Assembly: GCA_021292105.1 (NCBI GenBank)
Contig: CM037869.1
Span: forward strand, 23,388,050-23,452,049
DNA length: 64,000 nt
DNA from: Anadara kagoshimensis
Taxonomy: Eukaryota; Mollusca; Bivalvia; Arcoida; Arcidae
Direction of reading: 5' to 3'
This document shows positions 33,663 through 60,540 of this stretch, piece after piece (the stretch's first letter is position 1; the number at the start of each line of letters is the position of its first letter). The position numbers were made by a program, and so were the translations under genes. The notes beneath the pieces are model-generated. The model was given only the letters and a program-made list of their open reading frames with translations. It was not told the origin of the DNA and did no database searches.

Positions 33663-33866
33663 ATGTCCGCCGTCATACACTGTAGACTACGAAGGTGATA
33701 AGTGCAGGCAGTCTTGTTTTTCCTCGTATATTTTAACCCAAGAACAGAATCGTTTCAAAATGGTGTGAGTTGAAAGAATACATATGGAGGACTTATTTGC
33801 ATTTTTATCTCTTGCGGACATACCGTTCAAGAGAGATAAACCTCTATGAATTTGCATCACAAATAA
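33663..33866 (+). promoter_or_regulatory. Upstream ORFs before TSC22 long-isoform start
   Basis: Four short ORFs precede the main ATG: 33663-33698 (12 codons with stop), 33760-33768 (ATG GTG TGA), 33784-33849 (22 codons with stop) and 33846-33866 (7 codons with stop). The last stop, TAA at 33864-33866, overlaps the main start as TAATG. The cap site is unknown, so the first may not be transcribed. Confidence 0.6.
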
Positions 33867-35346
33867 TGGCTGCGAATCATAACTTTGACAAAATGGCCGT
33901 TGCAGACAACATATCCGTTAATTCTACTGTTAAGGAGCCTGAATCGCGAGATGATATTGATCAAAGACATCAGACAGGTAATTTGAAAGTCCTTAATAAT
34001 GGTTCACATAAAAAGAAGAGTACCTTCAAAATTACGAGCCTTACAAAAAGTGGGCAATCGAGTGGGAGTGGTGAAACTCCAGCTGATGCTGATGGTGACT
34101 CGATGGATGATCTGGACGAGACAGTCGAGAGTCACACGGAAGATATCAGTTCTGAAATTTTAGATAGTTCACGTTATACTGATTTAGCAGACACTCCACT
34201 GGAGGAATTTAACCAACCGTTTGGAAATGATCCTGAATCTAAGGAACCTAAGGAGAAACCAGAAGCAATTCCCCCAACTAGATTCAAAGTTGTTAAAATT
34301 GAAACAAAAGAACCATTTAAACGTGGAAGATGGTTATGTAGGGACTCGTTAGATGCCCCAGCAGCTGACAAGAGTGATACTAAGGTTGGAATTGAGGAAG
34401 GAACTTCAGGAAATTCAAGTGCGGCAAGTTCTATACATTATGTGCATGGTTTTGATGAACCCAGTAAAAATCCATTATCAGTTGTAACAAGTCAAGCAGT
34501 GGAAATACCACCTCAACAGAATGACAATATAGTTGATAATTATACAAAAGATCCACTACATGCATCTCACGGTCATGGACATGGTATTGTAAATACACAA
34601 GATAATGTGCCGGTTTCTTTACACATGTCTGGGCATGGTCAGAGTGTATGGAGTGATGGTACACAAATGCATGGTAACCCACCAGGCTCACATCTCCAGG
34701 GGGTACATGCTGGGACAGCATTTAATATACCACAAAACTTATCACAAACAAATATTCATCAGCCTCAGTCAGTATTGATGAGTACTAGTAATGCTTCTTC
34801 CAATATAACCGTACCCCCTATACAAAATTATCCAATTGCTAGTGCTGTTGGTCAAATAAGTGCTCCTCTTCCTGTGATATCGTCTCAACCAAGTGGTCAG
34901 ACCGGAACTGTCGAACCATCCACGCATATACCATCCGTCCCACCAACCCATCTCCAGAATGCTATGCAACAACCTTCTGCAGACCAACAATCGTCACAAC
35001 AGCATCAGATACCACAGCTAGAACCGCAGACATCAGGTCTGATACCTTCTCAACCAAATGTAGACTCTTCTAATCCTGTACTACAAGGTGCCCCATATTC
35101 AAATACTCAACAGACAGGCGTTGAGGCATCAGATAATAGACAAATTTTAGATGCTAGTACATCAAGGACGATAATTCCTCCTGTTCAATCTAGTGGTGAT
35201 GAAACTATAGTTAATCAGAATACAAGAGTTACAGTTCCTGGAATAGACAATTTATCGTTGGGAGTTTCTGGTTCCACATTATTAACCCCTTCTGCTGTCG
35301 CTGAAGCAGTAGGTGGTGTATCTAGTCCCACTAAAGAAGATGAAAG
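33866..35346 (+). CDS. TSC22-domain family, long-isoform first exon
   Basis: It encodes the N-terminal 493 residues, plus two bases of codon 494, of a long TSC22D1/2/4 or Drosophila bunched-A type protein. These are growth and signalling regulators whose C-terminal TSC22 box and leucine zipper mediate dimerisation. The ORF is open further upstream but has no earlier in-frame ATG. The chosen ATG has A at -3 and G at +4; an ATG at 33893 is possible. Residues 49-61 (KKKSTFKITSLTK) match conserved motif 1. An acidic DDLDE and ESHTEDISSEI follow at 81-98. Residues 139-160 (TRFKVVKIE ... EPFKRGRWLCRD) match motif 2. In known long isoforms these motifs bind NRBP1/Madm-type partners. Residues 170-490 are Gln/Ser/Pro/Asn-rich and likely disordered. 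The donor at 35347 is AAAG|GTATGT, and read-through reaches a stop at 35408. The TSC22 box exon lies beyond the window. Confidence 0.93.
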
Positions 35347-35445
35347 GTATGTATTAATTTTGTTAATTATACATGAGAAGTTTATTGCAGGAGCTCAAAA
35401 TTGTTTGTAATGGAAGGTCCAGAATGTTTTGCCTGTATTATACCC

Positions 35446-35697
35446 CCCCCCCCCCCCCCTCCCATTCTAGTTTGAGGGGGTATATAGGAATCGCCCTGTC
35501 TGTCTGTGTAAAATTGTGTCCAGGCCATATCTCGTAATTCCTTTGGACGACTTTATAAAACTTAACATGAATAATCTTCATGGCTTAAGAGTGTGTCATG
35601 ACCTTGAACCAAAGTCATATTAGAAAGGCCAAGGTCGTGGGAAAACATACCCATGTAGATGTTTGGGGCAGGGGGTATTCGGCTCTCAAGAGACAGT
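35446..35697 (+). repeat. Dispersed repeat R, copy 2
   Basis: It follows a run of about 17 C. It contains 'gggtatataggaatcgccct', 'gaataatcttcatggc', 'ggccaaggtcgtgggaaaac' and 'ggctctcaagagacagt', homologous to 2311 and 38703. Confidence 0.75.
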
Positions 35698-36197
35698 GTT
35701 AGTTTTTGGCATAGAGAGTTGTTAAAAGTCCAAATCAATATTGAAATAGCTGTAGTATCCTGGTAAATAAAAAAGACCCATCAGACTGTTTCAGTTAAAA
35801 TACCAAGGACCTGCGGAATGTTTGAACCCTGTGTTGTCGCCAACATGAAAACTGTATGATTGCATAATAGGGAAGACTTCCATTTATACCCTCCACTTAA
35901 ATTTTTATTTCAACTGAAAAAGTTAATAAATGACAGAATCAAGCCTGAACATTTCCGTAAAAAAATATTTTTCAAAAATGTTACAGTAAAAGTAATGGTT
36001 GCAGGGATTACAAAAGGAAGTCTTGCCACAGAAATTATATTTTTAATGTGGTACCTTAGCATACCACATGATGGATACCCCTTAAAGTTTGTGCCTAACA
36101 TATTGGAAAATGTTTATGTCACAGATTCCAGGAGTAAAGTAAATATTACGCTATTGGATTCCATATCTAATGGAAAAAAGTTTATCCTATTAATAAC

Positions 36198-36385
36198 CAC
36201 CGTGGTAGCTCAGTTGGTAGAGTGCTCGTCACGGAAGACTTGACACGATAAAGGATCCTGCTGAATAATGCCCTCAGTGCAACGCACAGGCAGAATTTCT
36301 GCACCTTCACCTATAGCTGGCGATGTCACGATATAAGTGAAATATTCCCAACTGGGATGTTAAACACCATTACTCTACTTACCTG
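36198..36385 (+). repeat. Internally deleted tRNA-derived SINE
   Basis: The head 'gtggtagctcagttggtaga' is intact through the A box. The B box and upstream body are missing. The lower body ('aaggatcctgctgaataatg') and tail ('atataagtgaaatattcc') remain. Confidence 0.75.
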
Positions 36386-36902
36386 TTCTGTATTAATGTT
36401 ATGTGGTATTGTTGGGTACGATATTGACAAACCCATTTGTTTATCACATGGTAAATTGCTGGATTTGATTGAAAATATTGTGTCTAGTTTCTGTTTTCCT
36501 TGACAGTGACCTTCAATACTGTTAACTTTTCCTGGTATCGTACTGTACCAATCTGTCTCCTGGTACCCAGGAAATGAGTGACATCACATCTTGTTGTGTA
36601 TCATTAAATGTATTTAGAAGATGACATGTATTATACATTTGTATATATTATTTTGGAACTTCTATTACAGTAAAACCTTGATACAGCGTCCCTCTATAAC
36701 TTTGCTACTTCACTTATCACCATAGTATTTTTAGGCCCCAGAGTCTATTTCTTGTCTGTTTCCAAGGCATTGCAGCCATCAAAGTGGGCTTCAGCTGCCC
36801 ACCAATTAAAATTTTCAGGGGGCCAGTGGAAATTCCAAGTGGCCATTCAACCTTTTCTTCCAAATGAAGGAAAATTAAGGCATCTTTTAGACAAATTAGG
36901 AT

Positions 36903-37347
36903 AAGCATGTGAACTTCCACATGGGAAGTGAGGCCGGGTGCTCCAGAAGAGTAAGCACCTCCTGATTAGTTAGCTAAATGATAAAACAAGACTAACACAC
37001 ATTGGGATCTGACACTGATTATAAAATTTCAGAATTTGAATAGGCTCTGGATAAAATGTCTAGTGTGGTTAAAGTACTGTTCTACTGGATGGCAACATCC
37101 AAACCCCTTATTTACAACCAGAACAGTGCCAGTGGTCATAGTTCCATGTTCCTTTCATTCAATTTTGATTACACATGGTGGATGTAGCTAAACGGGAGGT
37201 TCTAACCTTTCAGTAGCACCAAGCCTTATTATTTCCCTGGTGGAAGTTCTTTGTTTAACCTAACTTGTCAGTTTCAGTTTCTACTTTGTTTCTGAATTGT
37301 GTTTCGGACATTGATTAGTATGTTTGTTTTTGATTTACAACAAGGAC
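36903..37347. repeat. Repeat E fragments in opposite orientations
   Basis: 36903-36985 carries 'gtgaacttccacatggg' and 'gtaagcacctcctg' in direct orientation. 37125-37347 carries the complement ('ccctggtggaagttc', 'aacttgtcagtttc', 'tagtatgtttgtttttgatt'). This may be an inverted pair or one palindromic element. Confidence 0.55.
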
Positions 37348-37499
37348 AGTAGTTCATAAATATGCACATTTAAAAAACTCCAACTAAATCTTTTTTACAA
37401 AAAAATGAATCAACAACCCTTGCTTTGTATCTGTATCAATAAATAATGAGGGCAGAATGAATGTTACTTAGACTTAATTAAGTCACTAATCATATATTT

Positions 37500-37740
37500 T
37501 GTCTTTAGCCAAGTTCTCAGCATTACAAAATGAAAGTCAGGGTTCATTTGGAGGGATATTAAAATTAACAAGATCTTGTGCCACGGTAGGCATGGCACGA
37601 TAAAGAACCTTGCTGTATAATGCTATCAGTGCAATGCACTAGCAAAATTTCTGCACCTTTGCCTTTAGATAGCGACATCTCGATATAAGTGAGATGTTCT
37701 TGACTGGGTAAGTGGGATTAAACACCATTACTTAACTCTC
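37500..37740 (+). repeat. 5'-truncated tRNA-derived SINE
   Basis: Body and tail only: 'gaaagtcagggttcatttgg', 'ggcacgataaagaacc', 'gatataagtgagatgttc', 'aaacaccattacttaac'. Confidence 0.7.
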
Positions 37741-38702
37741 ACTGTATGAACTAAAGTCACTAACCATATTGCTGCGCCATTGTATTTCCTCACACTATAT
37801 GTAATATTGCTGTATATATTTTTTTATTGAGGAAACTACAAATATCTCAATGGAAATCATTTAAATGGCTTTCATTTTCAAATCAGAACATTTTATCATA
37901 CAGGGGAATAATTTATGCTGTTATGCCTCTTAGAAAATTCTTATACATGTACTGTTATTGGCCAATTTCTAATCACATGGTAACAGTGTTTGAAACCTTG
38001 GTCAAAATTGTAATGGGAAATTGCAATATTCACTGCTAAGCAGAGACTCAGGAAAACTTCAGAGTAAGCAATAATCCTATTTGTCTACATGTATCTCTAT
38101 GATTCTGATTAGTAGCACCCAAAAACCCTGGTCCGAATTATTCCTAGTCAATATTAAAAGGTTGTCAGAATAAAAGGTAAAAGAAGATGTTTTTCTTTCT
38201 TGTTCAGTATACACTTTTGTTGGGCATTATGAAGGATTGTCTCCCCTTTTGGAACTTCATCTTCCTTGCCAATCGGCTTTGGAGATGTTCCCTCTGGGAG
38301 ACAATCATTCATATTTTTCCCTCAACTATGTCTAAGGGCACCATTTGTATATTTTGGTTCACCCTAGTACCATGTAAATTGAGAGATTTAATGCTGGCAA
38401 GTGTCTGCTGAAATATCACTTCCTGTTGTTATCATTTAAAAATACATGTATTAATGCTATGCTTGTATATGTTCCTGGAATAACATGGTTTAAATAAACA
38501 GGGTTTAAGTAGCCAATGACCCCCCAGAAATTTGTTTGGGTCCCCCAATGTTTTTAGGGTTTTTTGTTGTGTATTGCTATTGTAACTTCTCTTCAGAAGT
38601 GAGCTTGGCCCCCCAACTCAAAATAGTTAATCTTCATTCAGAATAATATTTCTTGGGGAAACATCAATTTCATAATTGCACTACCAGTAATTATGGTTTA
38701 AT

Positions 38703-38948
38703 TATACCCCTGCAAACTAGTTTGAGGGGGGTATATAGTAATCCCCATGTCTGTCTGTTCATGTAAAATCGTGTCAGGGCCATATCTCATAGCTGCTCTG
38801 GACGACTGTCATTAAACTTCACATGAATAATCTTCATGGTCCAAAGATATGTCATGACCTTGAACCAAGGTCATATCTTAAAGGTCAAGGTCATGGGAAA
38901 ACATTAAATGTTGGGGCAGGGGTATTTGGCTCTCAAGTGACATTTCTA
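38703..38948 (+). repeat. Dispersed repeat R, copy 3
   Basis: 'taccccctgcaaactagttt'-like palindromic head, 'gggtatatagtaatccccat', 'ggtcaaggtcatgggaaaac'. A partial fourth copy (3' half) lies at about 39382-39492. Confidence 0.75.
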
Positions 38949-39972
38949 GTTATTATGAAAACGTGATATTTTGTAAGTTTTAAATTAAAATTTTTTAAAA
39001 AGAAAAAAATAATAAAGAAAGAAATTAAATTTAAACGTTTTGATAAAAGTCTGATGATTAATGCCGGTTCTAAACATTTGTAATATTCAAGGAAAAAAAC
39101 AATAATTAAAAGGTTTTCATGAAAAATGTAAAACCAAAGGTTTTTTAATTTTTATGCATCGAAATAAAAAATTCAAACTTAGCATTTGACCCTGCTGAAA
39201 ACCTGTGGCGTCACGAAAAATGTTTTTGCGATTATTATTATTATATTATTGATTTTAAACTCTAATTAATTATTGTGCAACTGGAGCTAGAGCTACATTT
39301 TAGCATTATAAGGTATGACTGATTAGGCAGGCCCATTGGAGACAACAGGCCATGGTGGCCATTTCAATCTTCTTTGATAGAGTGTTCATGGTCCAAACCG
39401 GTGTGGCATGACCTTCTACCAAGGTTAAGTGAAGGTCGTGGGAAAACATGAAATGTTGGGGGCAGGGATGTTTGGCTCTCAAGAGACAGTGCTAGTTGCT
39501 TTTGGCGATGTTTGTTGAATTAATTAATCTCACACCACAATAAGCTGATTACAAGCATGATAAGATTGGTTTTCAGAGTGAAGAGACAAAATTATCTTGA
39601 ACATTATTCTAGGATAACCTTGTCAGTAGTGTTTTGCATCATATGATTCTGGTGCTGAAAATCTTGTCTTCTTGATCTAAAAACATTACTACAATTCAGG
39701 AATTTACCTCTACACTTCTTATTGGTACTCTAGGATTTTTCCTTTACATTTACACAAGTACATGTACATCATATAAAAAAATCTGTCTTCCCACAGAACA
39801 GTTCCGCAATCCTAAAAAAGCAAACATGTATATATAGAATACCAGAAAGCAAACAGTCATGACTCAAATCAGGAAGCATTCTCCAGGAAGTACATGTAGT
39901 AGGCATATTAATATTATAGTTAATTACTCTTCAAACTACATGTGTTTACTTATATCATTTGTATGATTTAAA

Positions 39973-40140
39973 TACAGTCAAACATGTCAATAAAAGCCAC
40001 CATAGGGAGCCAGTAAAAGTCGCCTTTATTGGCAGGTGGTCCTTATATAGATTCAAATAATATCTGGTAAATTTGAATAAAGAGCAATTGATATAAAATT
40101 TTACTGGTCTTTAAAAGCATGTGGTCCTTATATAGAGGTG
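39973..40140. repeat. MITE-like palindromic repeat A
   Basis: 'tacagtcaaacatgtcaata' at the left, internal 'ccagtaaaagtcgccttta', right part 'gtccttatatagaggtgaca' lacking a clean terminal repeat. Confidence 0.6.
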
Positions 40141-40217
40141 ACAAAACTTCAGTTGTTCTTCATTTGGAAAAAATAGATATTGGTCATTTCAGTCCAGTAC
40201 GAACCTGTAGCCATCTC

Positions 40218-40322
40218 TATTTACATAGGATTCCATTTCTGGTATCCAAAATTGCCATAGGCTACTTTTCCACAAATTTCAGAACTTTGGTTACTATTAA
40301 GTTAGAAATTGTGGAAACCTAA
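40218..40322 (-). repeat. Partial MITE-like repeat B
   Basis: 'ttccatttctggtatccaaa' at the left and 'attgtggaaaccta' at the right correspond to the ends of the family at 52456 and 60636; the interior is shortened. Confidence 0.5.
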
Positions 40323-40631
40323 TGTACTGGTAAAAGGCCAATCTATAGTATTCTATAGCCAACAAAAAGTTTGACATTTCAATTTGACAAGTTAGTGATT
40401 AAGTTGACAAACTTTAACAAACGTAAATGGTCATCACTGGAGAAGCAAAATTAAAGCTTAATTTGACAAAAGAAGTTCCTTTAACCTTGATATTTCATTT
40501 AATCATGGACAAAATTGTCCAGACTTTTTACACCCCTTTGACCAGGATTCACTTGCACTAAAGCATGTAGACAAAACAAAAATTAAGTGTACAGTAGAAT
40601 TGTTTTAGGTCTTTCCTGTCACTCACTCAAG

Positions 40632-40890
40632 GGGCTTCGGCAGCTGAGTGATGTATATAATGGATTTACAAATCACAACACTGCTCGGTGCCTAGATTCT
40701 CAATTGGGCAGATCTTAGTGTGAAAGTATAGTTACATGTCAGTTGCTTGCAAATGTACAGTGTGGGTGGTATTCTCTGGACAGACACTCTGGTTTCCTCC
40801 GCCATGCAGAACTGACTGTCTTGATACAAGTGAAACAAAGTTGACTGGCTTAAACACAATATACTCACGAGTCACTCCACTACCTTATTC
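40632..40890 (+). repeat. Degenerate SINE-like element
   Basis: 'cggcagctgagtgatgtata' and a tail-like 'gatacaagtgaaacaaag' suggest an old SINE. The boxes are poorly preserved. Confidence 0.35.
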
Positions 40891-41649
40891 ACTTAGTATC
40901 TGATCTAACCAGAAATTTAAAATGTGTAACAATAATTGATATGGTGGAAATGGAATATACAGAATTAAGAGTAATCTGTTGTCAAGGAAACAATAATTAA
41001 GTTGATAGTTTTTTCAAATTTTGAAAATTGCCTGGAGTGGATTTGTAGAGTCTAATGCAATCAAAATTGTACATTTCCATTTTTTATCCTTGTTAATTAT
41101 GTTATATATCTTGCAGTGATGTTTTAATTCCATCTTAGCAGAGATGAACATAAAACTGGTCTCTAAACCATGTACATCCATTTATCCCTTACAAAAACCT
41201 TACCAGTTCTCTTGGCCTGTGTCGAAGCGAAAACATTTTGGAATAAATTAAAATGCTGGCCTGATATAGGATAATGAACAGGATTTTGATTTAGGGGAAT
41301 GTGATTATTCAATTTAAACCTCTTATTGTGATGTGAATTATTTCCTTCCAAGTAAATGTTTTCTTTCAAATAGGCACCTCCAGTAGGCAATGTGGGCAAG
41401 TGTTCCAAGTGGATGTTTTCTTTCAATAGGCACCATAGAGAGTGAGCTGAGTTGATGTGTCCTTCAAGTAGGCAACATGGGCATTTGTGAATGCTTTCCT
41501 CCAGTTGGCATATTGGATCAGTTGTATAAATGTTACAACTAGTAGTGCTACCAAATTATAAATATTTCAAGCAGTTAAAGATAATAATGTGACTACATTT
41601 GTGTTTAGTAGAAACTTGTGTCATTAAACATATAGACATGTGATATTCT

Positions 41650-41684
41650 ATCTCTCTCTCTCTCTCTGTCTCTCTCCTCTCTCT
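41650..41684. repeat. (CT)n microsatellite
   Basis: A CT-rich run of about 35 bases with GT interruptions. Confidence 0.8.
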
Positions 41685-42129
41685 GTATGTGTGTTACATA
41701 TACAATACTCGGAAGTGTACCAGTCTGTGGGGGGACATTCTGTTTTTCCATATCCTCAAGCAAATTTGTCATAAATTTTGCAGAAATGCCTGATATTTTC
41801 TGTACTAACTGGAAGTTACAGCCTACAGGAAACAATAAACTTTATACTTATACATGTATAATAGATAAAGAATTTATGAACAACAAAAACTGCTGTTACT
41901 CTATAATAGTGTATATACATAATCTACATTATAAGTAAATTTCATTTTACCCATGGTAAGTCCATTTTATAAATTTGTTCAGTTGTGCATAGTATACAAT
42001 GTACTGGGAAGTGTTTACTGAGGAAATATTTCAAATTCCATTATTGTGAATTTTCCCAAAAAATGTTTATTGTACTCTGTGGCATACAGTTGGTAGAGAT
42101 GTATAAAATCCATACCCTGTACAAAAGGG

Positions 42130-43377
42130 TGATCTGCCCATAAATGCCACTTTTACTGGTTCCCTTAGGTGGCATTTGTAGACAGGTTTGATTGTACCAC
42201 CTGCCCATAAAGGTCACTTTTACTTGTTCCCTCAGGTGGCCTTTATAGACAGGTTTGACTGTACCATCTGCCCATAAGACCACATTTTCTGGTTTCCTTA
42301 GGTAGCCTTTATAGACAGGTTTGACTGTACAATCTGCCCATGAAGCCACTTTTACTGGTTCCCTGAAGGTGGCATTTATAGACAGGTTTGACTACCACCT
42401 GCCCATAAAGGTCACTTTTACTGGTTCCCTTAGGTGGCCTCTATAGACAGGTTTGACTGTACCACCTGCCCATAAAGGTCACTTTTACTGGTTCCCTTAG
42501 GTGGCCTTTATAGACAGGTTTGATTGTACCACCTGCCCATAAAGGTCACTTTTACTGGTTTCCTTGGATGGCCTTTATAGACAGGTTTGACTGTACCACC
42601 TGTAGGGGTGTGCGATATTACCGGTATACCGGTATATTGCGGTATGGCAGGGTCGATACAATATACCGGTACGCAAAATAAAAAACTGGTATACCGCGGA
42701 AATTTTAAAAAATCAGTAGATTATGCTTTACGGTCATTATTTTGTTATTAGCACTTAAAAGGCTGTAATATAATCTTTATCTCGTAAGTGTTTGTCAACT
42801 ACATACAAAATAAAGCGCCTCTGAGATACAGACATGTATACATGTTATAACCGATAATGGCAGACGACGAAGTAAAACTTGTCAAAAACAAACGAGCAAA
42901 GGCAAAAGTGTGGGAACATTTTAAATTTAGGCAAATAGCAGCGGGAACTAAATGAAAATATAGCAGTATGCACTGTCTGTAATGCAGACTTTAAATATGC
43001 TGGGGGGGTACAAGTAATCTTACTTGCACATTCGCCGCCATCACCCAAACTTGATGCCGGTTCGTTTATCTTTTAAGCATTCATTAACTTTGCAATATAT
43101 TGCAATATGTATTGCAATATTTTCTCAAATATTGCAATATATTGCAATATGCTTTTTTCCCCAATACCCACCCCTAACCACCTGCCCATAGAGATCACTT
43201 TTACTGGTTCCCTTAGGTGGCATTTATAGACAGGTTTGATTGTACCACCTTCCCATAAAGGTCACTTTTACTTTTTTCCTCAGGTGGCCTTTATGACAAG
43301 ATTGACTGTACCGCCTGCCCCTTAAGGCCCCATTTACTGTTCCCTTAGGTTGTCTTTATAGACAGGTTTGACTGTAC
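42130..43377. repeat. 67-bp tandem array related to repeat A
   Basis: About ten units with a 67-bp period carry 'tgcccataaaggtcactttt', 'actggttcccttaggtgg' and 'tttatagacaggtttgactg'. The unit is the core of dispersed repeat A. A 574-bp hAT element splits the array at 42603-43176. ORFs here are repeat translations. Confidence 0.9.
42603..43176 (+). mobile_element. hAT-type element with 8-bp target duplication
   Basis: The ends are TAGGGGTG and CACCCCTA, exact 8-bp terminal inverted repeats, flanked by ACCACCTG on both sides (42595-42602 and 43177-43184), the 8-bp duplication typical of hAT. Inside, from an ATG at 42857, is the start of a transposase-like protein (MADDEVKLVKNKRAKAK then VWEHFKF) that stops after about 32 codons. 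A shifted frame gives AVCTVCNADFKY and GG, resembling the first half of a BED zinc finger. The element is short and non-autonomous. Confidence 0.85.
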
Positions 43378-44218
43378 ATGTATTGATTGTAATTTGTTGC
43401 TTAACATAATTACCATTCAATCTGAATAAATTCACATAAAAAAACATTTACAAGTACATGTATATCATTGTCATTTGTGCCAAGTTAAAATTCTAAGTCC
43501 AGCTAGGCACAGTGCTGGGTAGTGTAAAAATTTCCAGACACTTGAGTATTATACACTCCATAATTGTTACCGTTGACAAGTCTGATATTGATAAGAGAAA
43601 TTATAAATATATATATGTCATTTGAATTGAGAAATAAATATTTATTTGACTTCTCATTTTAAGAGGGAAAATGTGTTATAGATTGTTATATAATTAGGCC
43701 AATGCCATATGTTTTTTTTTGTGATTTGAGTTACCTCCCTTTATCCATAATATAAAGAATGCTTTGTATTTCAAAGTTGCATGCATAATTTATATCTCAA
43801 AATTAGTCATAGCTTCTTGCTTCTTTATTTAAATGTACATGTTTTTGTACAACACTAACTTTACATAACACATATGTAGTACCTATTTACATAGTATTTT
43901 TATAGTTGGTACTTGTCAATTTTTGTTTAATGAATTGAAAAGGAACTTAAAAAATACTTTGATAATGTGCATGTTTGTGTGTACGTGCGTCATAAAAATG
44001 ATAGTACAAATGTACCTGTCTGCACAAATTTATGCATCGCCCTCCACAAACAATATATACATCCAGTTTGATTAATGTGATGAAAAATTTACGTATCCAG
44101 TGTTTTCATTTCATGGTTATGTAAAATAGAAAAAGAAATGAGTGTGAAACTAGAGTCTGGATAAACAGCCTTGCAAATTGACATTAGGGTAGTTTATATA
44201 ATTTCACATTTTTGAAAG

Positions 44219-44530
44219 ACCACTGCAGTAGCTCAGTTGGTAGAGTGCTTGCTCTGTAAGTGGGAGGTCTTGGGTTCAAACCCCAACCGGGTCTGATCCA
44301 AGACTTGAAAGTTGGTAGTGACTGAAATGAAAGTCAGTTATATCGAATGGTAACTTAAAATAAATTAGGCCCTGTGTCACAGTAGGTGCAGATAAAAAAC
44401 CCTGCTGTACAATGCCATCAGCGCAATGCATAGGCAAAATTTCTGCACCTTTGCCTAAAGCTGAACTGGCGACATCTTGATGTATGTGAAATATTCTTGA
44501 CTAGGATGTAAAACACCATTAGCCAACTCA
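44219..44530 (+). repeat. Best-preserved tRNA-derived SINE
   Basis: 'cagtagctcagttggtagag' (A box), 'cttgggttcaaaccccaac' (B box), the body with 'gcagataaaaaaccctgctg' and 'gcacctttgcctaaagctg', and a tail 'gtgaaatattcttgactagg' ending 'aaacaccattagcc'. Confidence 0.85.
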
Positions 44531-45875
44531 CATTTTTAAAATGTATTTTGAAGTTGTCAAATTAAGATTTTACTTTATTTAGGTATTAAGATGTAGAGTG
44601 GTTTGTCAAAGGTTCAAATAACTTTCTCTTAATGAAAAAATATTTTATAGATATGTCATACTTGCCAACCATTACAATTTTGGCGTAAATTTTACGATTT
44701 TGAAGTTAAAATTAGAACCTTACTATTGCAAGTTAAAACTTATGATTGAAAAAAAAAATTTAGAAAATTGGAGTTGAAAGCCTTCTCTATTCTATGTATA
44801 TAGTGAAATATCAACTTCTTTCAATTCAATTGTGTAAATACTGCCCAAGAGCACAAGACAGGGATCCAGTGTTGTACATTTGTTTAAAAATGGCTTCTTA
44901 ATGTCATGGTCATGAAAATGACAATGATCGGGATCTTTAGCTGTCAGTTAAAATGAGAACAATGGTATAAAAAATTCCAACCCGAATTTTCGACAAAATA
45001 TCCATTTTTGTCAAGTCAAATACAAGAATAAATCCTTACGACTGATTTTGCAAAATTTTATGATGACCAAAATTTAAGCAAATTTACTCCTAGTCTCAAA
45101 AAAGGGTAGGCAAGTCTGCTATGACATTATTTCACATTAAACATAGTCATGCAGTGCACTGTTACAATTAGTGATTGAACAGACATGGAATTTAATGTAA
45201 GAGTTATCTCTCTTTACACTTGTATTGTCCATACCTTAGATCAAGTGGATTAAAATTAGGTATTGTAATTTAAAGATTTAAAAATTTAAAGGATACAGCC
45301 AGTTTTACTGTATATACTAGTGAAAATTTGAAATGTTTGTAAAAACAGGATGGCATTTTAAACTGTTCTGTGTTCAAGTTTGAAATTATAATAGAATAGA
45401 CTGTTAGGATGATTTATTTAGGCAAAATTGGGTTACATATTTTTGTGCAAAAATTTAAACATTTCATAAACACAAATAATGAATGACATGTGGTTTTCAG
45501 TAAATAAACTTTAAAAATGAGGTAATGGGCAAGGTCATGACCTCATGTAAAATATAAACAACATATTAAGATTTTGACATTAGATTTTCATTTTACTGAT
45601 GATTTTAGATATTTTATTGAATATTGTCTGTCACTATTTGTTAAAATCTAAATGAACAGTGATAATCCTATCTTGCCCTGCTTGGCCATGCTCTAATTAA
45701 CAGAATGTATATATATATATATTTGTAAAAATACTTTCAGTTTTAACTGTTTCTCATAGGTCAGTTATGGCCATATGTAAATGATTATTATTTTTATGAT
45801 TTTATGATATTTATGATGTATGATTTTTAAAATTGCTTATTATTATTTACATGTAACACTAATTTTTTTGCTTAT

Positions 45876-46995
45876 GCCTGTGGTACCAGGGAGGTACATA
45901 GGCCACTGACAACACTTCTCCATCTGGTTCTATTCTGTGCTAATCTGCCCAGGTCTTGCCATTTTGACCCTCTCTATCCATTTCTGATTGCAGGTTTCTC
46001 CGCCAGGTGTTTCTTGGCCTTCCGACTTTTCCTTTTCCTTGAGGATTCACTGCAGTGCCTGTCTTGTAATTGAATTTGTTGGCTTCCGCAGTGTGTGTCC
46101 TATCATCGTCATTTCCTTTTTGATAGCTCCATCTCTATAGGTTGTTGTTTGGTCTTCTCCCATAAATCAAGGTTGGTGATTATCTCTGGCCATCTGATCT
46201 TTAGGATTTGTCTTAGGCAGTTGTTAATGAAGACTTGGAGCTTGTTTAGGAGACATTTAGTTGTTTTCCATATCTCGCAGCCATATAGAAGTATGGTTTT
46301 AACATTTGAATTAAACAGTCTGATTTTAGTGTTCAAGTTGATGTTACCAGCTCTCCAAATAGTTGTCATCATTCTATATGCTGTTCTTGCTTTTCCTATT
46401 CGGCATTTAATGTCTTGCTCTGAGCCACCTCGACCATCCATAGTGCTACCAAGATATGAGAAGGATTCGACCTCTTCCAAAGGAGTTGATGATAGTACTT
46501 GCACGACTGGTGGTATTTGCCTTAAGCACTTTGGTTTTCTTTTTGCTGATGATAAGGCCAGTCTCATGCTCTCTCTCTTCTATTACAAGCAGTTTGTCTT
46601 TCATTTGTTGGTGGGTGTGGGACAAAAGGGCGATGTCATCTGCAAAATCTAAGTCATCTAGCTGTTCAGTAAGAGTCCACTGGATTCCATTTCTTCTCTT
46701 ACTTGTAGTCTGTCTCATAAACCAGTTAACTGCTAGGAGGAATAAGAATGGTGACAATAAACATCCCTGCTGTACCCCTGTAGTGATATCAAAGGAGTCT
46801 GTGAGTTGACCTTCGTGCATTATTCGACTCTGCATTCCTGTGTATGTGTTCTTAATGATCTTAATAAACTTTTCTGGTATACCATAATGTCCCATGAGTT
46901 TCCATAACACTGCTCTATCTAGGCTGTCAAAAGCTTTTTGGAAATCGGTGAAAACTATATATAGCGATGACTTGAATTCCAGTGACTGCTCGATG
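45876..46995 (-). mobile_element. 5'-truncated LINE, reverse transcriptase remnant
   Basis: On the minus strand the translation shows non-LTR reverse transcriptase motifs: DFQKAFDSLDR (46965-46915 region), TGVQQGCLLSPFLFLL, and the catalytic LDFADDIALL, then YLGSTMDGRGGSEQDI. The reading frame shifts near 46450-46570, so no intact protein is made. The 5' half (endonuclease and most fingers) is missing. A fragment of the same element is at 31005-31275. The clade is not assigned. Confidence 0.88.
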
Positions 46996-47690
46996 ATGAT
47001 TGATTAGATCAACTTTATTATTATAAATATTTTTTCTATTTAAAGATATTTTGTTTTTGGTCACAATTTAGAAAAATTGAGAAAAAATGTCGCAAATTGT
47101 GACATTTGCTACTGACAGTGTGAGCCCTGCCTGTACAAACATGACACATAGGTAATGAAATTAATAATGCAACAAACATTTACATTCAATTTCACACAAG
47201 TCCAAAAACAGTTACCCTGCCTGAGGCCATGGTAGGCCAAAGTTTATGTATTACTACATGTACTGACAAGAAAATAAATTAGTACTTAGTAACAGTGTCC
47301 CCTTAATTATTAATGACTGTCATGGCTAGGGTAAAACTGCTGTAAACTTTCTCTCCTTTCAAATGCTACAGTGTTATTTAAGAGAGTGTAAGATGCAATA
47401 TAATGAATATTATAGTAAGAGGGAGGGACCGAACAAAAGGTCAAATGCAAATGATACATATAGAAAAACCCCCATTTGTATACTTTCCACTAAATTATGA
47501 CTTTATTCATACTGGTTATTAATATCCTAAACTTTAGATGACAGACTAAATCTGTATTGAAAAATTGTGTGAAGAATTTTTTCAGAAATTGTACTTAAGT
47601 AAGGCTTACCCAAACTACACCTGACATAGTACTCTATTAGAAGAAACATTAGCTGTAGGAAAAGTCTGGGTTTTGGTATTCTAGACTATA

Positions 47691-49446: not shown

Positions 49447-49450
<4 letters not shown>

Positions 49451-50530
49451 ATTTATGACTATCTCTCATAGACAGACAGCTGTTTATTACTACCTCTCAC
49501 ATATTGACAGGTAAGCTTGGTATTGTAGTACATGATTATCTTCACGTTGACATGATTACCACACCTTAACACTTATATTACCAAGTAATATTACCCAACA
49601 TTACCTTAATCCCTAGTTTGTTACCCCTGCTAGGTATAATTAAGAGGGATTTCTTTATCTCAGTCACATCTTTTGATTGTATTAATGTCATGTTTTCACC
49701 TAATTTTATATAACCAGTTTAAAGCAGCTATCACTAGTAGGTAAAAAACGAGAGATAGTTCATTATATTATTTGTGTGTTATAATGATTGATGGATTTAT
49801 ATATATATATATATATATAGTGGAAAAGTAGGGCTTCATTCAAGTGTGACCAACTATTTCTGTGCACAGGGCTTGCTTGACCAGACTTTATTACAAGTAT
49901 ATAATTGTTTATGAATGATATTGTGACCTGAGTGTGTGTGTCCCTGAGGCTATATATGTTGTACAGTGCTGGACAGGTCTACTGCATCACAACACCAAAA
50001 ACACTGGTGAGATTAATATATATGTGACCAAGATCTAGAAGATAAGGATGTATTTGTTGATATAAAGAGAGTTGTTTATGTTGAAATATACCTGTCTGAG
50101 GTTGAAAGAGTTGATGAAGAAAAGACGTTTAAAGAAGAAAAAAAAACCACTTAGGGTGTATTTGTGTAGAAGTTTTTTAAGTTGTTTATGTTGAAATTCA
50201 CTATCTTAGTTAAAACTAGTTGGAGAAAAAACTTTTAAAGAAAAACACTGTTTTAAGCAATTACTGATTTAGGATGTGTAAATTCAAGGTGCTTTGAAGT
50301 TACTTTTTCATGAGTTGGTGATAAGAAGGTTTGGATTTGTAGATACTCAGCTGAACTTTATATGTTGTGAAAGATTGACACAAAGCAGTTTTGAAATTTA
50401 GAATTAAGTATATACCATAAGTCAGGAGTGTGGAATTGTAGATATTCTGAAGTTTACATTTCGCAGTTTAAGATTTAAATTTTACCATATACCATAAATA
50501 AGTCAGGAGTTGTTAAAACTTTCATCCAGA

Positions 50531-50781
50531 ATGATGAATTATTTAGATCGAGGTTTGAAACTGGACAAACCTAGACCCAGAAGTAGAAGTGATGATAGTT
50601 ACATCAATAGTAATTCATTTCCCAGCTATACCAATGCCAAACTGGCACAGTCCAGCACAACCACGCCAGCATATCTAGTCATGCCGTACTATATGTACCG
50701 GTCACTTAGTCAGGAGAACTTACCCGTGTATTATGGCCAGCATACTGGTACTTGGCCACAACCTTGGTATAAATATCAAAA
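50531..50781 (+). CDS. Candidate TSC22 alternative first exon B
   Basis: ATG at 50531 (A at -3), followed by a second ATG. It gives 83 codons plus two bases, then AAAA|GTAAGT, a full-consensus donor. The peptide begins MMNYLDRGLKLDKPRPRSRS, continues Ser/Asn/Tyr-rich (PAYLVMPYYMYRSL) and ends TWPQPWYKYQ. No database family is recognised. Assignment to the TSC22 gene rests on strand, position between the long first exon and the missing box exon, absence of an acceptor need, and the same phase 2 at the donor as exons A and C. It could instead be a first exon of an unrelated gene. Confidence 0.6.
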
Positions 50782-51037
50782 GTAAGTGTTCTAAATGTCT
50801 CAAAAGCTAATAAATGTAGTAAGGACATCATCAGGATACTGTTATGTTTTCATTCCTGTAGCCAAAATGCAAAATCTACATTGGCTTCTAATATGTTTGA
50901 GAAATTCTTTCAAAATTAATATATTAGTATTAAATTTGTTTAAATTTGACTTAATTTTGAAAAAAATTTTTTTTAGAAGGACTTTGGTATATTTACAAAA
51001 ATTTTAGAAATTACGCTACTTACAGTTGTACATTTGT

Positions 51038-52318: not shown

Positions 52319-52455
52319 AACCTTTGTCCGTTCATCCTTCTGAAACAAAACATTTGTAAGTTTTCTAAGCAACTACAATACATGCATTATCAGGTAATCT
52401 GTAAACCTTTCACTTGAATTATGGTAAGTAATTCCAATGAAACCGAAGGGATTTC

Positions 52456-52625
52456 TAGGTTTCCATAAATTTAAAATAATTAATAGCCAAATTTCCAAAA
52501 TTTGTGAAAATATAGTCCTTTTTAAAGTATTTTTCCACAAATTTGCTAAAATAGGTTACTTTTTGAAAGAATTCCTCAGAAATTAGTAGCCAATGGCGAT
52601 TTTGTCTACCAGGAATGGAAACATA
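52456..52625 (+). repeat. MITE-like repeat B, full copy
   Basis: 170 bp with ends TAGGTTTCCA and TGGAAACATA, which are 10-bp terminal inverted repeats with one mismatch. The interior is partly self-complementary. Confidence 0.8.
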
Positions 52626-54242
52626 GGATTTTGCCAGGCTTAATGCAGCAGTTTTAAGTTTGCAAATCTAGTTGACCGACGAATCACATTTAAGGTCACA
52701 ATGGCCTTAAATAGTTCAACCTTAAGACATCCTGTCATGAGCAGAATGGCTTGAATTAAGGTCATATATAATACTAATTCATCAAGTTGACCGCTACCCA
52801 CATCAAGGTCACAGTGACCTGAAGTAGTAAAACATTAAAAGAACTGAAACAGTGAAAGGCCTAGATTCCTGACACGGCATCACAGTATAAATCTACCACA
52901 CAAATGCTGTTATGTGTTATCAACATTCAGATTTTGGCTTAAACTAAGGTCTTTTTTATTTGCATTTTCTTTGCAAGTCCATCTTTAAGCTGTCATATGT
53001 CAAAAAATGAGGGGATTTTCCCCATCTTTTAAAGTTATTTTTCAAATGTTCTCCTCGGAGGACCAAGCATTTTATTACTATTTTTTTAAATATTTTACGA
53101 GTTTCAAAAAAGGTCTTCTTAAATTTGGAGAAAAAGGTCAAATTTTGAAAACTTGGAAAATTAAAATTGACCACTGAATACATAATTGATGTCTAACATT
53201 AACTGCTAAGATTAGCTCATTGTGTCCAAAATCTAGTGCAGTGGGCTTGTCTATGACATATTATACTTGTCATCTATTGAAAAAACCTGTAGTTATTGTC
53301 TGAATGCCTCTTAGTCAATCAGAACCTAATAAATAGTATAGTACATCTGCAATCATCATATAATTAGTGTAAATGATATTTGTGTAACAATGGTCTGTCA
53401 TTGTCTGACAGGCCACATGTAGAAGTTAAAACTAAATATGACATGTCTGTCACAATCAACTTTGTGTAAAACCAGACAGAGGTTTAAGGGTACTAACTTG
53501 TAATTTCCATACTTGTATTCCTAGTAAGAAGCACCTTCAAAGTACTCAATTCATGTATATATAAATTCTAAACTGAAAATTTTACATTACAATATTATTT
53601 AAGAAGCCTGTACCAAGTCATTAGAAAAACAACTTGTTGAAATTCAGGTTATCTTCACATTGTTTATGTATTGAAATGGGTCACCATGATAACGAAGAAC
53701 AAAGTGTGATTTGTTGTATGGTTTGTAATGGTGTTATTGAAGATGATGATAATTATTTAATTTTGTAGTATAAAACATTACATATATCAGAAAACAGTTA
53801 AATAAATTCATCTTTATTGCTCTAACAAGTAAAAATAACTTGTATACAAATATTAGGGTGAAAATTGACACTATTCAGCTATAGCAGATATTACTGTATA
53901 TTAAAGCAAAGTTGAAAGGTATCATGTTTTGTGAATTCATAAGAGTTATTTCCCTTTAACTGAAAAAATATTTTAGAAAATGGTTATACAAAGCAACACA
54001 CTATTTACCATAGCAAAATAGTACAGGTCCTAATCAGACAGGTGACTGGATCACAGTTACACAAATTTTTAAAACCAATGAGTAGAATCCAAGTCTGATG
54101 TGATGTTTGGATTTTGTAGTGTCTAATGAAGCCCATAAGTTCTTCAATTTGTAAAATTTGGTCTATAATTTTTACCTTTTTTTTCCACAAAAAATGTATC
54201 ACTAATTTTATTATTTATTTTACTTATTATAAAGATATCATT

Positions 54243-54267
54243 TACTTATTTATTTATTTATTTATTT
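54243..54267. repeat. (TTTA)n microsatellite
   Basis: About six TTTA units. Confidence 0.8.
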
Positions 54268-54555
54268 GGTTTCAACAATCTGTAAGTTACAATGAAATTA
54301 ACTTTATTGTGTCAGCACTGACATCATTCACTTTTATTTAAGAAAGTAAGAATTACCTCCCTTTGATTGTAAAATGATATTCGCTATGTGTAGTGCCAAA
54401 ATGTATAAACATTATGATTTTCCACAGTTACTGTTATCAACATCATATGTGTGTTTCATGGATTTATAGTTATTTTCCAGGTAAGTGTTTCGTTTCGTTG
54501 TTTTAAGTTTATAACACTTTCTTCTTTGGTCATTCATTACACATAAACTGCTACC

Positions 54556-54625
54556 GGTACTCCACTAAGTTGGTAGAGTGCTTGCTTTATAAGTGGGAGG
54601 TTGGGGGGTTCAAGTTGTTAGGACT
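54556..54625 (+). repeat. SINE head fragment
   Basis: 'actccactaagttggtagag' and 'gtgcttgctttataagtggg' match the tRNA-like head only. A more complete SINE follows at 54655. Confidence 0.6.
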
Positions 54626-54654
54626 TTCTTTAGTCAATCATTATACATAATAAA

Positions 54655-55010
54655 ACTACTATGGCAGTTCGGTTGGTATGGTGCTCATATCATATTTTGG
54701 AGGTTGTTGGTTTGAACCACAGACCAGAACTGACCAAGACTTGAAAATAGGTAGTAACTGTTCTTTTGCCAAGCACTCAACATTTAGAAATTTTGATAGT
54801 CACAGAGTCCTTTGGAAGAGACATTAAAAACAGCAATGTCCCTTGTCATGGCAGGTATGGCACATTTAAGAACCCTCCCTACCCATTGCCCTAAGCGCAC
54901 TGTAATGGCCAAAATTTCTGACTCTTCACGGTCACTATAGTTGGTGACATCATGATATAAATGAAATATTCTTGTCTAGGACATAAAACCCGCTCAATCA
55001 ATCAACCATT
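54655..55010 (+). repeat. tRNA-derived SINE with TCAA tail
   Basis: 'tggcagttcggttggtatgg' (A-box region), 'tggtttgaaccacagacc' (B box), body 'gtcacagagtcctttggaag', tail 'gatataaatgaaatattc' ending 'ctcaatcaatcaacc'. Confidence 0.75.
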
Positions 55011-55572
55011 ACACATAACAGCTAAAGCATCTTCATTGCTTTAATGGAACTTGTAATGTGCAGATCGTTCTGAGACCTTTTAACTTTTTAGTCAGACTTT
55101 TTAACATTTTGTTTAATATCTTATTATTAGTTAACATATATTCTTATAGAAAACATTCGGGCAGTTAAAGTCTAATATCAGATGCTGCAGTAATATGAAA
55201 TGGCTTATTAAGTTATTTTGAAGGTCATAACGATTTCACATATTTAGTAAGTTTATATCACCAACTGAGAGACCTAGAAGGTAAAATCATCAGTGTAATA
55301 CACCTAACCAATAGGTTATAGCTTCAACAACATTTATAATCAAATACTTATTCATGTCCTCCCATAAGTGTGTGTTTAGGCCTATTGGGACTCTAATTGC
55401 TTTTATTGCTAAAGAAAGTGTTGAGGCTTATTGATGCTTTTTGGTAATAACACGGCTATAATGTTGGTCAGAAATAGCTCCTGTCCAGCTAAGACCTCAA
55501 GGAGTTGCTTAAATTTGGCATTCCAGGAATTGGTTTGATAATTTACAGTATATACATATACTATATGCAATG

Positions 55573-55705
55573 ACTAGGTTTCCACAAATTAAGATAGAAC
55601 ATGTATATTACTATAAGTAGCTAACTTTGCAAAATTTGTGAAAATATAGTCCCACTAAGGTATATTTTAGTGCTAATAGTGATTTTGGCAACCAGGAATG
55701 GATCA
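55573..55705 (+). repeat. MITE-like repeat B, shortened copy
   Basis: 'actaggtttccacaaattaa' at the left, 'gcaaaatttgtgaaaatata' inside and 'ggcaaccaggaatggat' at the right. Confidence 0.65.
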
Positions 55706-56039
55706 AAACATAGCTTATCTGACTGTGCCAAAGTTGAAAGACCTCAGATCAAAACTAAAAGAGGTCATTAAATAGTTGTGTTTGTTAATTTAGAAAATGG
55801 AAAATTACTTAGTATTAGGGAGTGCAGATAAACCACTAGGTCAGATTCGACTAAAAGATAAACACATGACCTCAAAAATATAGAACACATTTTGTCGCAG
55901 CTAAATCCAGCTAAAAGATAAACACATGAGGTCACAAATATAGAACTCAATTTGTTGCAGCTAGGCTAGTACTTTTAAAGCAGTGTTCAGTCTCAAATAC
56001 ATTATTTCCAAAATATTTGTTTTTAATTATGGGTCTAGT

Positions 56040-57950
56040 ATTGAACCTAAACACCAGCAAGCCATTAGGAAACAGAGCTCTCACATAGTCATTTTATGAT
56101 ATTTTGTTCCATTCATTGAACCTCAACATCAGCAAGCCATTAGGAAACAGAGCTCTCACATAGTCATTTTATGATATTTTGTTCCATTCATTGAACCTCA
56201 ACACCAGCAAGCCATTAGGAAACAGAGCTCTCACATAGTCATTTTATGATATTTTGTTCCATTCATTGAACCTCAACACCAGCAAGCCATTAGGAAACAG
56301 AGCTCTCACATAGTCATTTTATGATATTTTGTTCCATTCATTGAACCTCAACACCAGCAAGCTTTTAGGAAACAGAGCTCTCCAGGGGCGTAGCTGGGGT
56401 GTTTATGATGTGGACGCCTAAAGAGGGCCGCCCTGATGCGAATTTTCGGCCCTCCAGGGCGCTATTTATCAGAATTTTTCTTATAATTTTATGCTATGCT
56501 GTTGTAGTTTTTGTCGTTCTTTTGAGGACTGGTTCATTCTTAAACCTGAAGACGAGGTACAAGGGGATCTGATGTTGTATGGCATAAGCACTACGAAAAC
56601 AACACACTCAATAATTGAGAAAGTCAAGTTAAAATGGGAGTTCAGTTAATATAGTGGTGAGGTTAAACGGAGGAGAGGAAATATATTTGTAAATATATTG
56701 CGTTAATACATAATGAAACCTGACGAATCTTGTGTATCTGGATTCTGCTGTTGAGCTGCTGGACTAACTGCGCTCGAGTTATCGGCTTTTGAAGCCAAAA
56801 ACAAATCAGATAGTTTTAATTGTTTTGCCATGCCGGCAAAGTCAAGACAACACCGGAACCGCACCTCAGAGGCTATCGAAGTCAGGTGTAAACCGAATTC
56901 GTATATAACATTTCCGGTGAAGACCAACGGTTTGGGTATAAGAAATATATTATACTCTCTCTCTCTCTTTTTTTTTTTTTTTTTTTTTTGCGAAAACGAT
57001 GTGGACGTTTTTGCGTACAAACGTACGCCTGGCTACGCCCCTGCTCTCACATAGTCATTTTATGATATTTTGTTCCATTCATTGAACCTCAACACCAGCA
57101 AGCCATTAGGAAACAGAGCTCTCACATAGTCATTTTATGATATTTTGTTCCATTCATTGAACCTAAACACCAGCAAGCCATTAGGAAACAGAGCTCTCAC
57201 ATAGTCATTTTATGATATTTTGTTCCATTCATTGAACCTCAACACCAGCAAGCCATTAGGAAACAGAGCTCTCACATAGTCATTTTATGATATTTTGTTC
57301 CATTCATTGAACCTCAACACCAGCAAGCCATTAGGAAACAGAGCTCTCACATAGTCATTTTATGATATTTTGTTCCATTCATTGAACCTTAACATCAGCA
57401 AGCCATTAGGAAACAGAGCTCTCACATAGTCATTTTATGATATTTTGTTCCATTCATTGAACCTTAACACCAGCAAGCCATTAGGAAACAGAGCTCTCAC
57501 ATAGTCATTTTATGATATTTTGTTCCATTCATTGAACCTCAACATCAGCAAGCCATTAGGAAACAGAGCTCTCACATAGTCATTTTATGATATTTTGTTC
57601 CATTCATTGAACCTCAACACCAGCAAGCCATTAGGAAACAGAGCTCTCACATAGTCATTTTATGATATTTTGTTCCATTCATTGAACCTCAACACCAGCA
57701 AGCCATTAGGAAACAGAGCTCTCACATAGTCATTTTATGATATTTTGTTCCATTCATTGAACCTCAACATCAGCAAGCCATTAGGAAACAGAGCTCTCAC
57801 ATAGTCATTTTATGATATTTTGTTCCATTCATTGAACCTCAACACCAGCAAGCCATTAGGAAACAGAGCTCTCACATAGTCATTTTATGATATTTTGTTC
57901 CATTCATTGAACCTAAACACCAGCAAGCTTTTAGGAAACAGAGCTCTCAC
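56040..57950. repeat. 75-bp satellite array, about 16.6 units
   Basis: Nearly identical 75-bp units contain 'ttgaacctcaacaccagcaa', 'gccattaggaaacagagctc' and 'tcatagtc'-like 'cacatagtcattttatgata'. Unit differences are mostly limited to 'cctcaacacc/cctaaacacc/ccttaacatc' and 'gccatt/gctttt', so expansion looks recent. A 661-bp element splits the array. It lies in the putative TSC22 intron between exons B and C. Confidence 0.95.
56383..57043 (-). mobile_element. hAT-like element inside the 75-bp array
   Basis: The ends CAGGGGCGTAGC and GCTACGCCCCTG are exact 12-bp terminal inverted repeats. The flanks are CTCTC on both sides (56378-56382 and 57044-57048), a 5-bp duplication. A minus-strand ORF (about 56703-56860) gives FAGMAKQLKLSDLFLASK, resembling the N-terminus of hAT/ZMYM1-like transposases. 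(CT)n and T runs lie at 56956-56989. It is non-autonomous. The family is provisional because most hAT elements make 8-bp duplications. Confidence 0.82.
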
Positions 57951-59560
57951 TTATTTTTTCTCATTCATAATGCAAAATCTTGTTTTTTCACAATCACTTT
58001 TCCAATATGCCAATTTTCTGTTTTGGAAAATGAAGTTTTTAAAACTTTTATTTTGGAGTTCTGCTGTCACTTTATTCTGGTATTTTTCTTTTCACAATTT
58101 TGGCCATTACTGGTATGATACTAAATTTCACAATTGCAAGAGGTTTTATTTTCACAATTACAAGTACAATTAAGAACTTCCCAGTTTATTCAATATGCTA
58201 TTCCCAACTCTCATTCATAATAGTGAATGAATACACTCAAATAGAATGTTATTTCTTATATTTACAATCATAAAAATGTTATTAACATGACAAAAATGTA
58301 AAATTATCACTAGAATTATTTATTTTATCCAACAAAGATATGGTATTGATGGAACAGCCTTTTCCCAAATAAGGATAGAAATGTTGGAACTAAGTTAAAA
58401 TTCTGACCAATCAAACAAGACGTGATGTAACAGAATGATATTCTATGACATAATCAGATAGTTAAACATTAGGTTATCAAAGGTCATGTCGAACATTGTA
58501 TTCATTAGCAATTGAATGCCAGCAAAAACAAATAGGTTCATTTAAAGAATGTCAATTCCTTTTATAATATGAGAGTGTTGAGGGTTCATTATACTGAACC
58601 TGTTTATACTGGTCTGAAGGAGATACTGTCACTGTCCTCACCTCACAATTCTTTGTCCTGATATTTTTCATGGAAGTTTTTTAGAGAGTATTGAAGGTTC
58701 ACTATGCTATACTGAACCAGAATTTACTTCTCTAAAGAGGACACTGTCTTTATTTTTTATTATGGAAGTACAAATAAGAGTTGTTGTAGGTTCATTATAC
58801 TGAACAAGCTTTCACTGTCCTGAAGGGGGGCATTGTCTTTATTTCACAAAAACATTGCCCTCATACACACATGCATGTATATATATATATTTTATGTACC
58901 GGTAAGTTTATTACACAGAAGTTTATTGCAGTGATATTTTTACTACCAGTATGTAAGGATTACTTGGTCTTAAATTATTTTTTGCAGAATAATGCTTCTC
59001 TTTAAAACTTTCTATTTATAAATAAAACTTTAAAATATGTTAAATGTGACATTGACTGCAACAAAAAAGAGCTTTGTAGGTGACTGTACCCTGAGCTAGT
59101 TCTCTCTCTATATATATACACATACATAAATCTACAGGTAGTTATTTTTTCCACTCTGACAAGTACAACTGCTCTGTGATGTCTGTTCTATGATATATGA
59201 AGTAGCTAACAATTTTATGTATAAGTACCTTAACAGAGTTCAAATCTGCCAGATCAATAAATTTTTGTGTGAAGTCGTGTGAAGTTTGCAATTGGAATTT
59301 TAATTATTTACCTTTAAACCAATAAGTTGACGCAATATAAGTTCAATATTTATTGTTTATTTATAAAGTTATCCTAGTACTTTTTTAGTTGTTATGCACA
59401 TAGGAACTTTCTATTTTACTTGTGGGAGATTACGTAACACTTTAGTTATCTCTGTGATCACCCTGTATGAAGGTGTATACCAGTTATAAATAGTAGTATA
59501 CTCTTATGACTAATTGTTTACCTGAAAATAACAGTAAATAAGTGCAGGGGGTCTGTGCTA
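57951..59560. other. Intronic DNA without recognised features
   Basis: AT-rich. A triplicated phrase near 58575-58830 ('gagggttcattatactgaac', 'actgtcctgaag') suggests an old ~110-bp tandem repeat. No exon is supported. Confidence 0.35.
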
Positions 59561-60046
59561 CCGGAAATATTCAACAGGTTAACCCCGCGACCTTGGCTAC
59601 TTATGAATATTCATGAATAGAAAGGTTTTATCTAGCCAGTGAAGCTCCTCCTTTCTGTGGTTTTATGTAGTGTAACAGTTCAAATGAACAGCTGATCGAT
59701 CGAAGAGGTTGTCTTGTTGTATGCGTTGGTGTAGATTGTGTGGTAATTAACTTTGGGTGGATCATTATTTTTTCATGGATTTTTACACATCCAACGTCTT
59801 TATTAAGTTTGGGTTGGACTGATATTTATTGAATTTGGTTGATGCATGTATATGTATATATAGATGGTTTTGCAGCAATCAGGTGGCATATAGTGTTATC
59901 TATAACTTCTAGATACAGGACTTAAAGTTGATTAACTTTTTATCTACATAACTTTTTACTCGGGAGATTTATTTTTAATCTTTATCCAGGATTGTAAATA
60001 TTGAGCTATATTATACAATCTGATAATATTTATTCTTAATATTGAA

Positions 60047-60540
60047 ATGTGCTCTACTGTTATGGTACTCACCATGGATATGCAGCCAGCTTTACAAAAA
60101 CAAGACTTAATGTTACATCATCTAGTGGACACTAATTATAATACCCAACCATATATCGACACCGGTGGTCATTCCTGTGGTGTCCAGACTGGACACCCTG
60201 ACCATATGTATCTTGATAACAGATTTAGTGACAATGGCATTAGCGGTCATTCTTGTGACAATCACACTGGACAGTTAGACCATATGTATTGCAATAATAA
60301 TAACAGATTACACAAAAATGACATTGGTCATTCGTGTGGTGTCCAAACTGGACAGTTAAGCAATATCTATCTTGATAATGGCAGCCTAAGTAAAAAAGAC
60401 AATGACCACTCTCTTGATAATAGCAGATTAAGCAATAAAAAGGATAATCTGAGCAATAGAGGATTATCTCCACATTGTCGACAAGAAGATAGTTACAATG
60501 TGATGCTTCATACAGCATTTAGTGTTTTAAAGACTTTCTG
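60047..60540 (+). CDS. Candidate TSC22 alternative first exon C
   Basis: ATG at 60047, 164 codons plus two bases, donor TTCTG|GTAAGA. The exon has no visible family match. Residues 41-130 hold three clear and one degraded 26-27-residue repeats, with GHSC at 41, 67 and 94 and DHS at 120, each followed by a TG(Q/H)...Y(L/C)(D/N)N-type segment. The end, NVMLHTAFSVLKTF, is hydrophobic and loosely recalls the segment before the TSC22 box in short vertebrate isoforms (weak). The phase 2 donor equals those of exons A and B. Upstream, 59601-59625 has an ATGAATATTCAT palindrome and 59690-59702 has CAGCTGATCGATCG, possible promoter elements. Gene assignment is inferred. Confidence 0.62.

Follow-up and report, generated by a model that had tools for sequence, protein, structure and literature searches.

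The 64,000 nucleotides of the Anadara kagoshimensis genome analysed here (C13:23388050-23452049, the window) contain the long-isoform first coding exon (exon A) of what, judging from its sequence, is a gene of the TSC22/bunched type that extends over at least 36 kb from this exon to the stop codon. We find it probable that exon A, and most likely also two exons further downstream on the same strand (exons B and C), are alternative first coding exons, each spliced to one shared exon of 46 nt and from there to the exon encoding the TSC22 box. The structure of the gene, i.e., its exons, phases, frames, motifs and box, is seen directly in the DNA.

An earlier note on the window had placed three exons on the plus strand, each starting with an ATG, open throughout and ending at a GT donor two bases into a codon, and all three were found as described. 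Exon A (33866..35346) has 1481 nt, i.e., 493 codons and two bases; it starts with the ATG at 33866, encodes the motifs KKKSTFKITS, RFKV and RWLC, and has its final base at 35346, at the donor AAG/GTATGT (the slash marks the exon border). Exons B and C are candidate alternative N-termini of short isoforms. Exon B (50531..50781) has 83 codons and two bases, with an ATG at 50531, a second one at 50534, and its final base at 50781 (donor AAA/GTAAGT). Exon C (60047..60540) has 164 codons and two bases, counted from the earliest in-frame ATG at 60047 to the final base at 60540 (donor CTG/GTAAGA), and is internally repetitive: by eye, its translation consists in part (60160-60440) of a loose repeat of about 26 residues (GHSCGVQTG...HMYLDN...).

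The exons that these donors would join lie beyond the right edge of the window. A search with the Pfam family PF01166, covering 1.115 Gb in 36 contigs, gave two places above the cut-off, both on the contig of the window. One of them, at 69785 in window coordinates, is 5.8 kb past the right edge. Here the TSC22-box exon (69785-69982) starts in phase 0; its acceptor is ...ATCTTCAG/GACTTG, and its stop is at 69982. Ahead of it is the 46-nt exon (68644-68689), whose acceptor is ...TTTCAG/TGGATCC, whose first base completes the codon, and which encodes GSSTVAIDNKIEQAM. The acceptors of the 46-nt and box exons score 7.2 and 8.8 and rank 9 and 2 among 3805 AG sites, on donor and acceptor tables that hold approximate frequencies taken from general knowledge. 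Since the box exon starts in phase 0, A, B and C cannot join it directly in frame, which rules out direct splicing of any of them to the box. The shared phase-2 acceptor leading into the TSC22 box that the earlier note expected to the right of the window thus exists, at 68644, but it is that of the 46-nt exon, not of the box exon. When A, B and C are each joined on paper to the 46-nt and box exons, all remain in frame and reach the common stop with no inner stop. The predicted products have 574 amino acids (A form), 164 amino acids (B form) and 245 amino acids (C form). In mammals the stretch N-terminal of the box reads GASVVAIDNKIEQAM. Most Bun and mammalian proteins have a conserved stretch directly N-terminal of the box (PMC2253523, cited throughout from excerpts, as are PMC12266122 and PMC12266109).

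The box exon matches PF01166 with E=1.2e-27 and 96.2 bits (cut-off 30) over positions 2-55 of 57; nine further Pfam families were listed in the same search, every one of them below its own cut-off. The box also matches the PDB entry 1dip (E=3.2e-21). The motifs RFxV and RWxC are the Rphi motifs A and B of TSC22D1, TSC22D2 and TSC22D4 (PMC12266122; PMC12266109), and both occur in the A form, as RFKV at residue 139 and RWLC at residue 155, an R-to-R spacing of 16. Exon A thus does carry the TSC22 long-isoform motifs attributed to it before, close together and N-terminal as expected of a long isoform. Because both the box and the Rphi motifs are present, the predicted protein is a member of the TSC22/dip/bun family, defined by a TSC box and a leucine zipper. 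Neither exon B nor exon C has RFKV or RWLC; B has no R[FW]xx whatsoever, and C has RFSD only. On paper, B and C thus give what is expected of short isoforms: a different N-terminus, no RFxV or RWxC, and the same box.

How often would such exons arise by chance? We scanned window coordinates 1..68640 for open frames of at least 60 amino acids that start with an ATG and end at a donor scoring at least 3.5. The plus strand has three such candidates, which are exactly A, B and C, all in phase 2; the minus strand has two, both in phase 0. In 100 third-order Markov sequences, the mean number of phase-2 candidates was 0.21 at 60 amino acids or more (one sequence in 100 had two or more) and 0.04 at 80 or more (none had two), and no candidate reached 150. 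The donor cut-off was chosen post hoc, just below the score of exon B (3.55), so this comparison is not a blind test; at a cut-off of 5.0, C alone passes, and both A (4.74) and B are missed. A second count used no donor score: among open frames of at least 80 amino acids starting with an ATG, the stop lies inside a GTAAG in 2 of 11 on the plus strand (B and C) and in 0 of 9 on the minus strand, and among those of at least 20 amino acids on both strands in 6 of 566. The prior chance that B and C would both share the phase of A is about 1 in 9.

Further evidence comes from a second copy of the gene on the contig of the window, located about 313 kb farther upstream, where C13:23071906-23156033 aligns to window coordinates 1410-81912 with an offset of about 313-319 kb. 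The copies differ at 673 of 33,035 aligned non-exon bases (2.04%) between window coordinates 33000 and 70000, very unevenly (from 0.15 to 5.2% per 2 kb); the match becomes patchier farther upstream in the window, in pieces that are 81 to 95% identical. An unpurged allele and a recent large duplication are both possible origins of this second copy. A gap of 2500 Ns at C13:23217764 was considered as the duplication junction and ruled out, since homology continues beyond it: the sequence to its right still matches that downstream of the window copy (C13:23549.6-23557.2 kb). In all three exons both copies keep the frame and the donor intact. Of the 14 differences in exon A, 3 are nonsynonymous (ratio of nonsynonymous to synonymous differences, pN/pS, 0.08; P 1.5e-5 against neutrality), and by this comparison the exon is under purifying selection at the protein level. 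The two differences in exon B are both synonymous (P 0.04), which is suggestive of protein-level constraint there as well. The 46-nt exon has no difference and the box exon has one. At 42000-45999 each 2-kb half has just 3 differences in 1998 aligned bases, against 2.04% overall. Upstream of exon C, at two arrays of one 75-bp unit (56040-56382 and 57043-57950; 4.6 and 12.1 copies, 98% match), the alignment breaks and shifts.

The long isoform has a promoter-like region in front of it. A CpG-rich stretch (30001..34000, no strand assigned) ends at exon A, with an observed/expected CpG ratio (o/e) of 0.57-1.06 per kb. The o/e then drops at exon A; its mean between 35 and 70 kb is 0.27, and two single kilobases, at 56 and 69 kb, reach 0.68. 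Over the 400 nt preceding exon A it is 0.97 (93rd percentile). In invertebrates, depletion and retention of CpG can be read as a footprint of methylation, and 30001..34000 would then be the germline-unmethylated promoter region of the long isoform, followed by a methylated gene body that would span B, C and the box. A complete cAMP response element (CRE, TGACGTCA) lies at 33632; it is the sole one in the window, and at least one also occurs in 32 of 100 shuffles.

Several observations weigh against B and C as first exons. None of the three exons, A included, matches any Pfam family at E<=0.1. Over the 400 nt preceding exon B the o/e is 0.13 (22nd percentile), with no footprint of a CpG-rich promoter, and over those preceding exon C it is 0.58 (83rd percentile), a mild footprint only; the promoters of B and C, if they exist, are CpG-poor. 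The earlier note was right that A, B and C require no acceptor, yet acceptor-like AGs that fit the phase occur just before the ATG of B and within C, so that B or C could instead be a cassette exon included after A. An AG one base before the ATG of B would define a 252-nt exon (50530-50781) in phase 2 at both ends, and the joined A, B and 46-nt exons would be in frame and encode a longer A isoform, a reading that also agrees with the lack of a CpG footprint before B. Similarly, an AG before 60427 would define a 114-nt cassette within C (60427-60540), of a length divisible by 3 and open in the frame of A. These acceptors are however weak, with scores of 0.13 for B (rank 425 of 3805) and 0.29 for C, against 7.2 and 8.8 for those of the shared exons. 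Moreover, the open frame of C extends 380 nt further 5' than a cassette requires, and distinct 5' exons are the pattern described for the family in the excerpts (PMC2253523). We thus regard a cassette as unlikely. A stronger AG in C, at 60188 (score 3.07), was also considered as an acceptor for A and rejected: it is out of phase and runs into stops.

Exon C could also be, as possibly could B, a dead exon within an intron of the A transcript, or an open frame that arose by chance. Between the copies, coding constraint on C is not significant: of its 10 differences, 6 change an amino acid, where about 8 are expected (pN/pS 0.35, P 0.10). Its divergence (10 of 491) equals the non-exon rate, both being 2.04%, and no clear CpG footprint of a promoter precedes it. 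C has no indel and no stop in either copy, with frame and donor intact, but indels are equally absent from 100 of 641 non-exon stretches of that length; at non-exon divergence, the intact length of C thus lends mild support only. The frame itself also speaks for a real exon, since it has 164 amino acids from an ATG to a donor in the right phase and none of the 100 simulated sequences gave a phase-2 candidate of 150 or more. A chance or dead frame is, in our judgement, an improbable account of C, much as a cassette is.

It is very improbable that B or C is spliced to another gene, or that it constitutes a small gene lacking introns, with a stop that falls in a GTAAG by coincidence: both frames do end in a TAA within the donor, but this is inevitable for any phase-2 GTAAG donor, and of the 20 ATG-started open frames of at least 80 amino acids (both strands together) none but B and C end in GTAAG; a phase-0 candidate of 41 amino acids with a strong donor lies at 61623-61745, but the scan gave no further plus-strand candidate of at least 60 amino acids between C and 68640, and the phases of B and C both suit the TSC22 acceptor.

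With A, B and C as alternative first coding exons, the gene resembles known members of its family, in which long and short isoforms made from one TSC22 locus are an established layout (bunched, TSC22D1). Like Drosophila bunched, it has one locus with distinct 5' exons and a shared 3' exon with the TSC box and zipper (PMC2253523). The excerpts on bunched describe short forms as well as long ones that have two conserved domains at the N-terminus, as in this gene; the transcripts described there number six, differing in their 5' exons and promoter regions and ending in one common last exon, against the three candidate first exons found here (PMC2253523). Unlike bunched, the gene has a separate 46-nt exon ahead of the box exon. 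TSC22D1 is likewise organised, with a long form (TSC22D1.1) that has RFxV and RWxC and a short form (TSC22D1.2) that has another N-terminus and the same box; the excerpted sources describe one short form of it, where this gene has two short candidates. The R-to-R spacing of the motifs, 16 here, is 18 in both TSC22D2 (R161, R179) and TSC22D4 (R71, R89), as taken from the names of constructs in the excerpts (PMC12266122). TSC22D3 (GILZ) is given there as having no Rphi motifs, whereas this gene additionally has a long form with them (PMC12266122).

What is described in these systems suggests how the isoforms could work. In mammals, the Rphi motifs of the long TSC22D proteins bind the CCT domains of NRBP1 and, in the case of motif A, of WNK1, and short TSC22D isoforms without Rphi motifs oppose the long ones (PMC12266109; PMC12266122). 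In Drosophila, BunA promotes growth and, on overexpression, BunB and BunC counteract it (PMC2253523). By analogy, we infer that B and C are transcribed, from promoters of their own, and that their products dimerise and act antagonistically. The A form would be the long adaptor isoform, with RFxV and RWxC in its N-terminal part. The B and C forms lack these motifs and keep the box and zipper, and so should be able to pair with the long form or among themselves while not recruiting NRBP or WNK, and hence to oppose the long form as short isoforms. One exon encoding a CCT domain was found above the family cut-off in the genome (PF12202, E=1.7e-15, 67 bits, positions 1-41 of 63), and its translation appears to resemble that of a WNK. 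More tentatively, B and C could be lineage-specific N-termini of short isoforms, used in certain tissues and driven by low-CpG promoters within the methylated gene body, with C, made up of a loose repeat of about 26 residues, a young and fast-changing coding first exon that tunes the control of WNK signalling by the long form; we consider this possible and rather doubtful.

The exon map, with exact junctions from A to the stop, adds one more animal genome to those of fly and mammals in which the long and short TSC22 layout is known. Among the matches listed in the literature, none described the gene in molluscs; of the listed papers that pair TSC22 with bivalves, one, on an oyster transcriptome, names it once, and the other is on cattle. 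Should B and C be used, one gene would give rise to two kinds of TSC22 lacking the motifs, which bears on the age of the antagonism between long and short forms in growth and osmotic signalling. Otherwise the gene is an ordinary member of a conserved family.

The window has other features apart from this gene. Units of 21 and 27 bp form a large, degenerate array at 23613-25009, which is open on the minus strand for 219 codons, with a repeat of the type SDQYTCISS. On the same strand, an open frame at 46446-47003 resembles, by eye and by its motifs, part of a retrotransposon reverse transcriptase. Two further CpG-rich stretches, 1-1000 and 18001-21000 (o/e 0.84-1.36), flank a CpG-poor region from 2 to 18 kb; this arrangement possibly represents the promoter and body of another gene.

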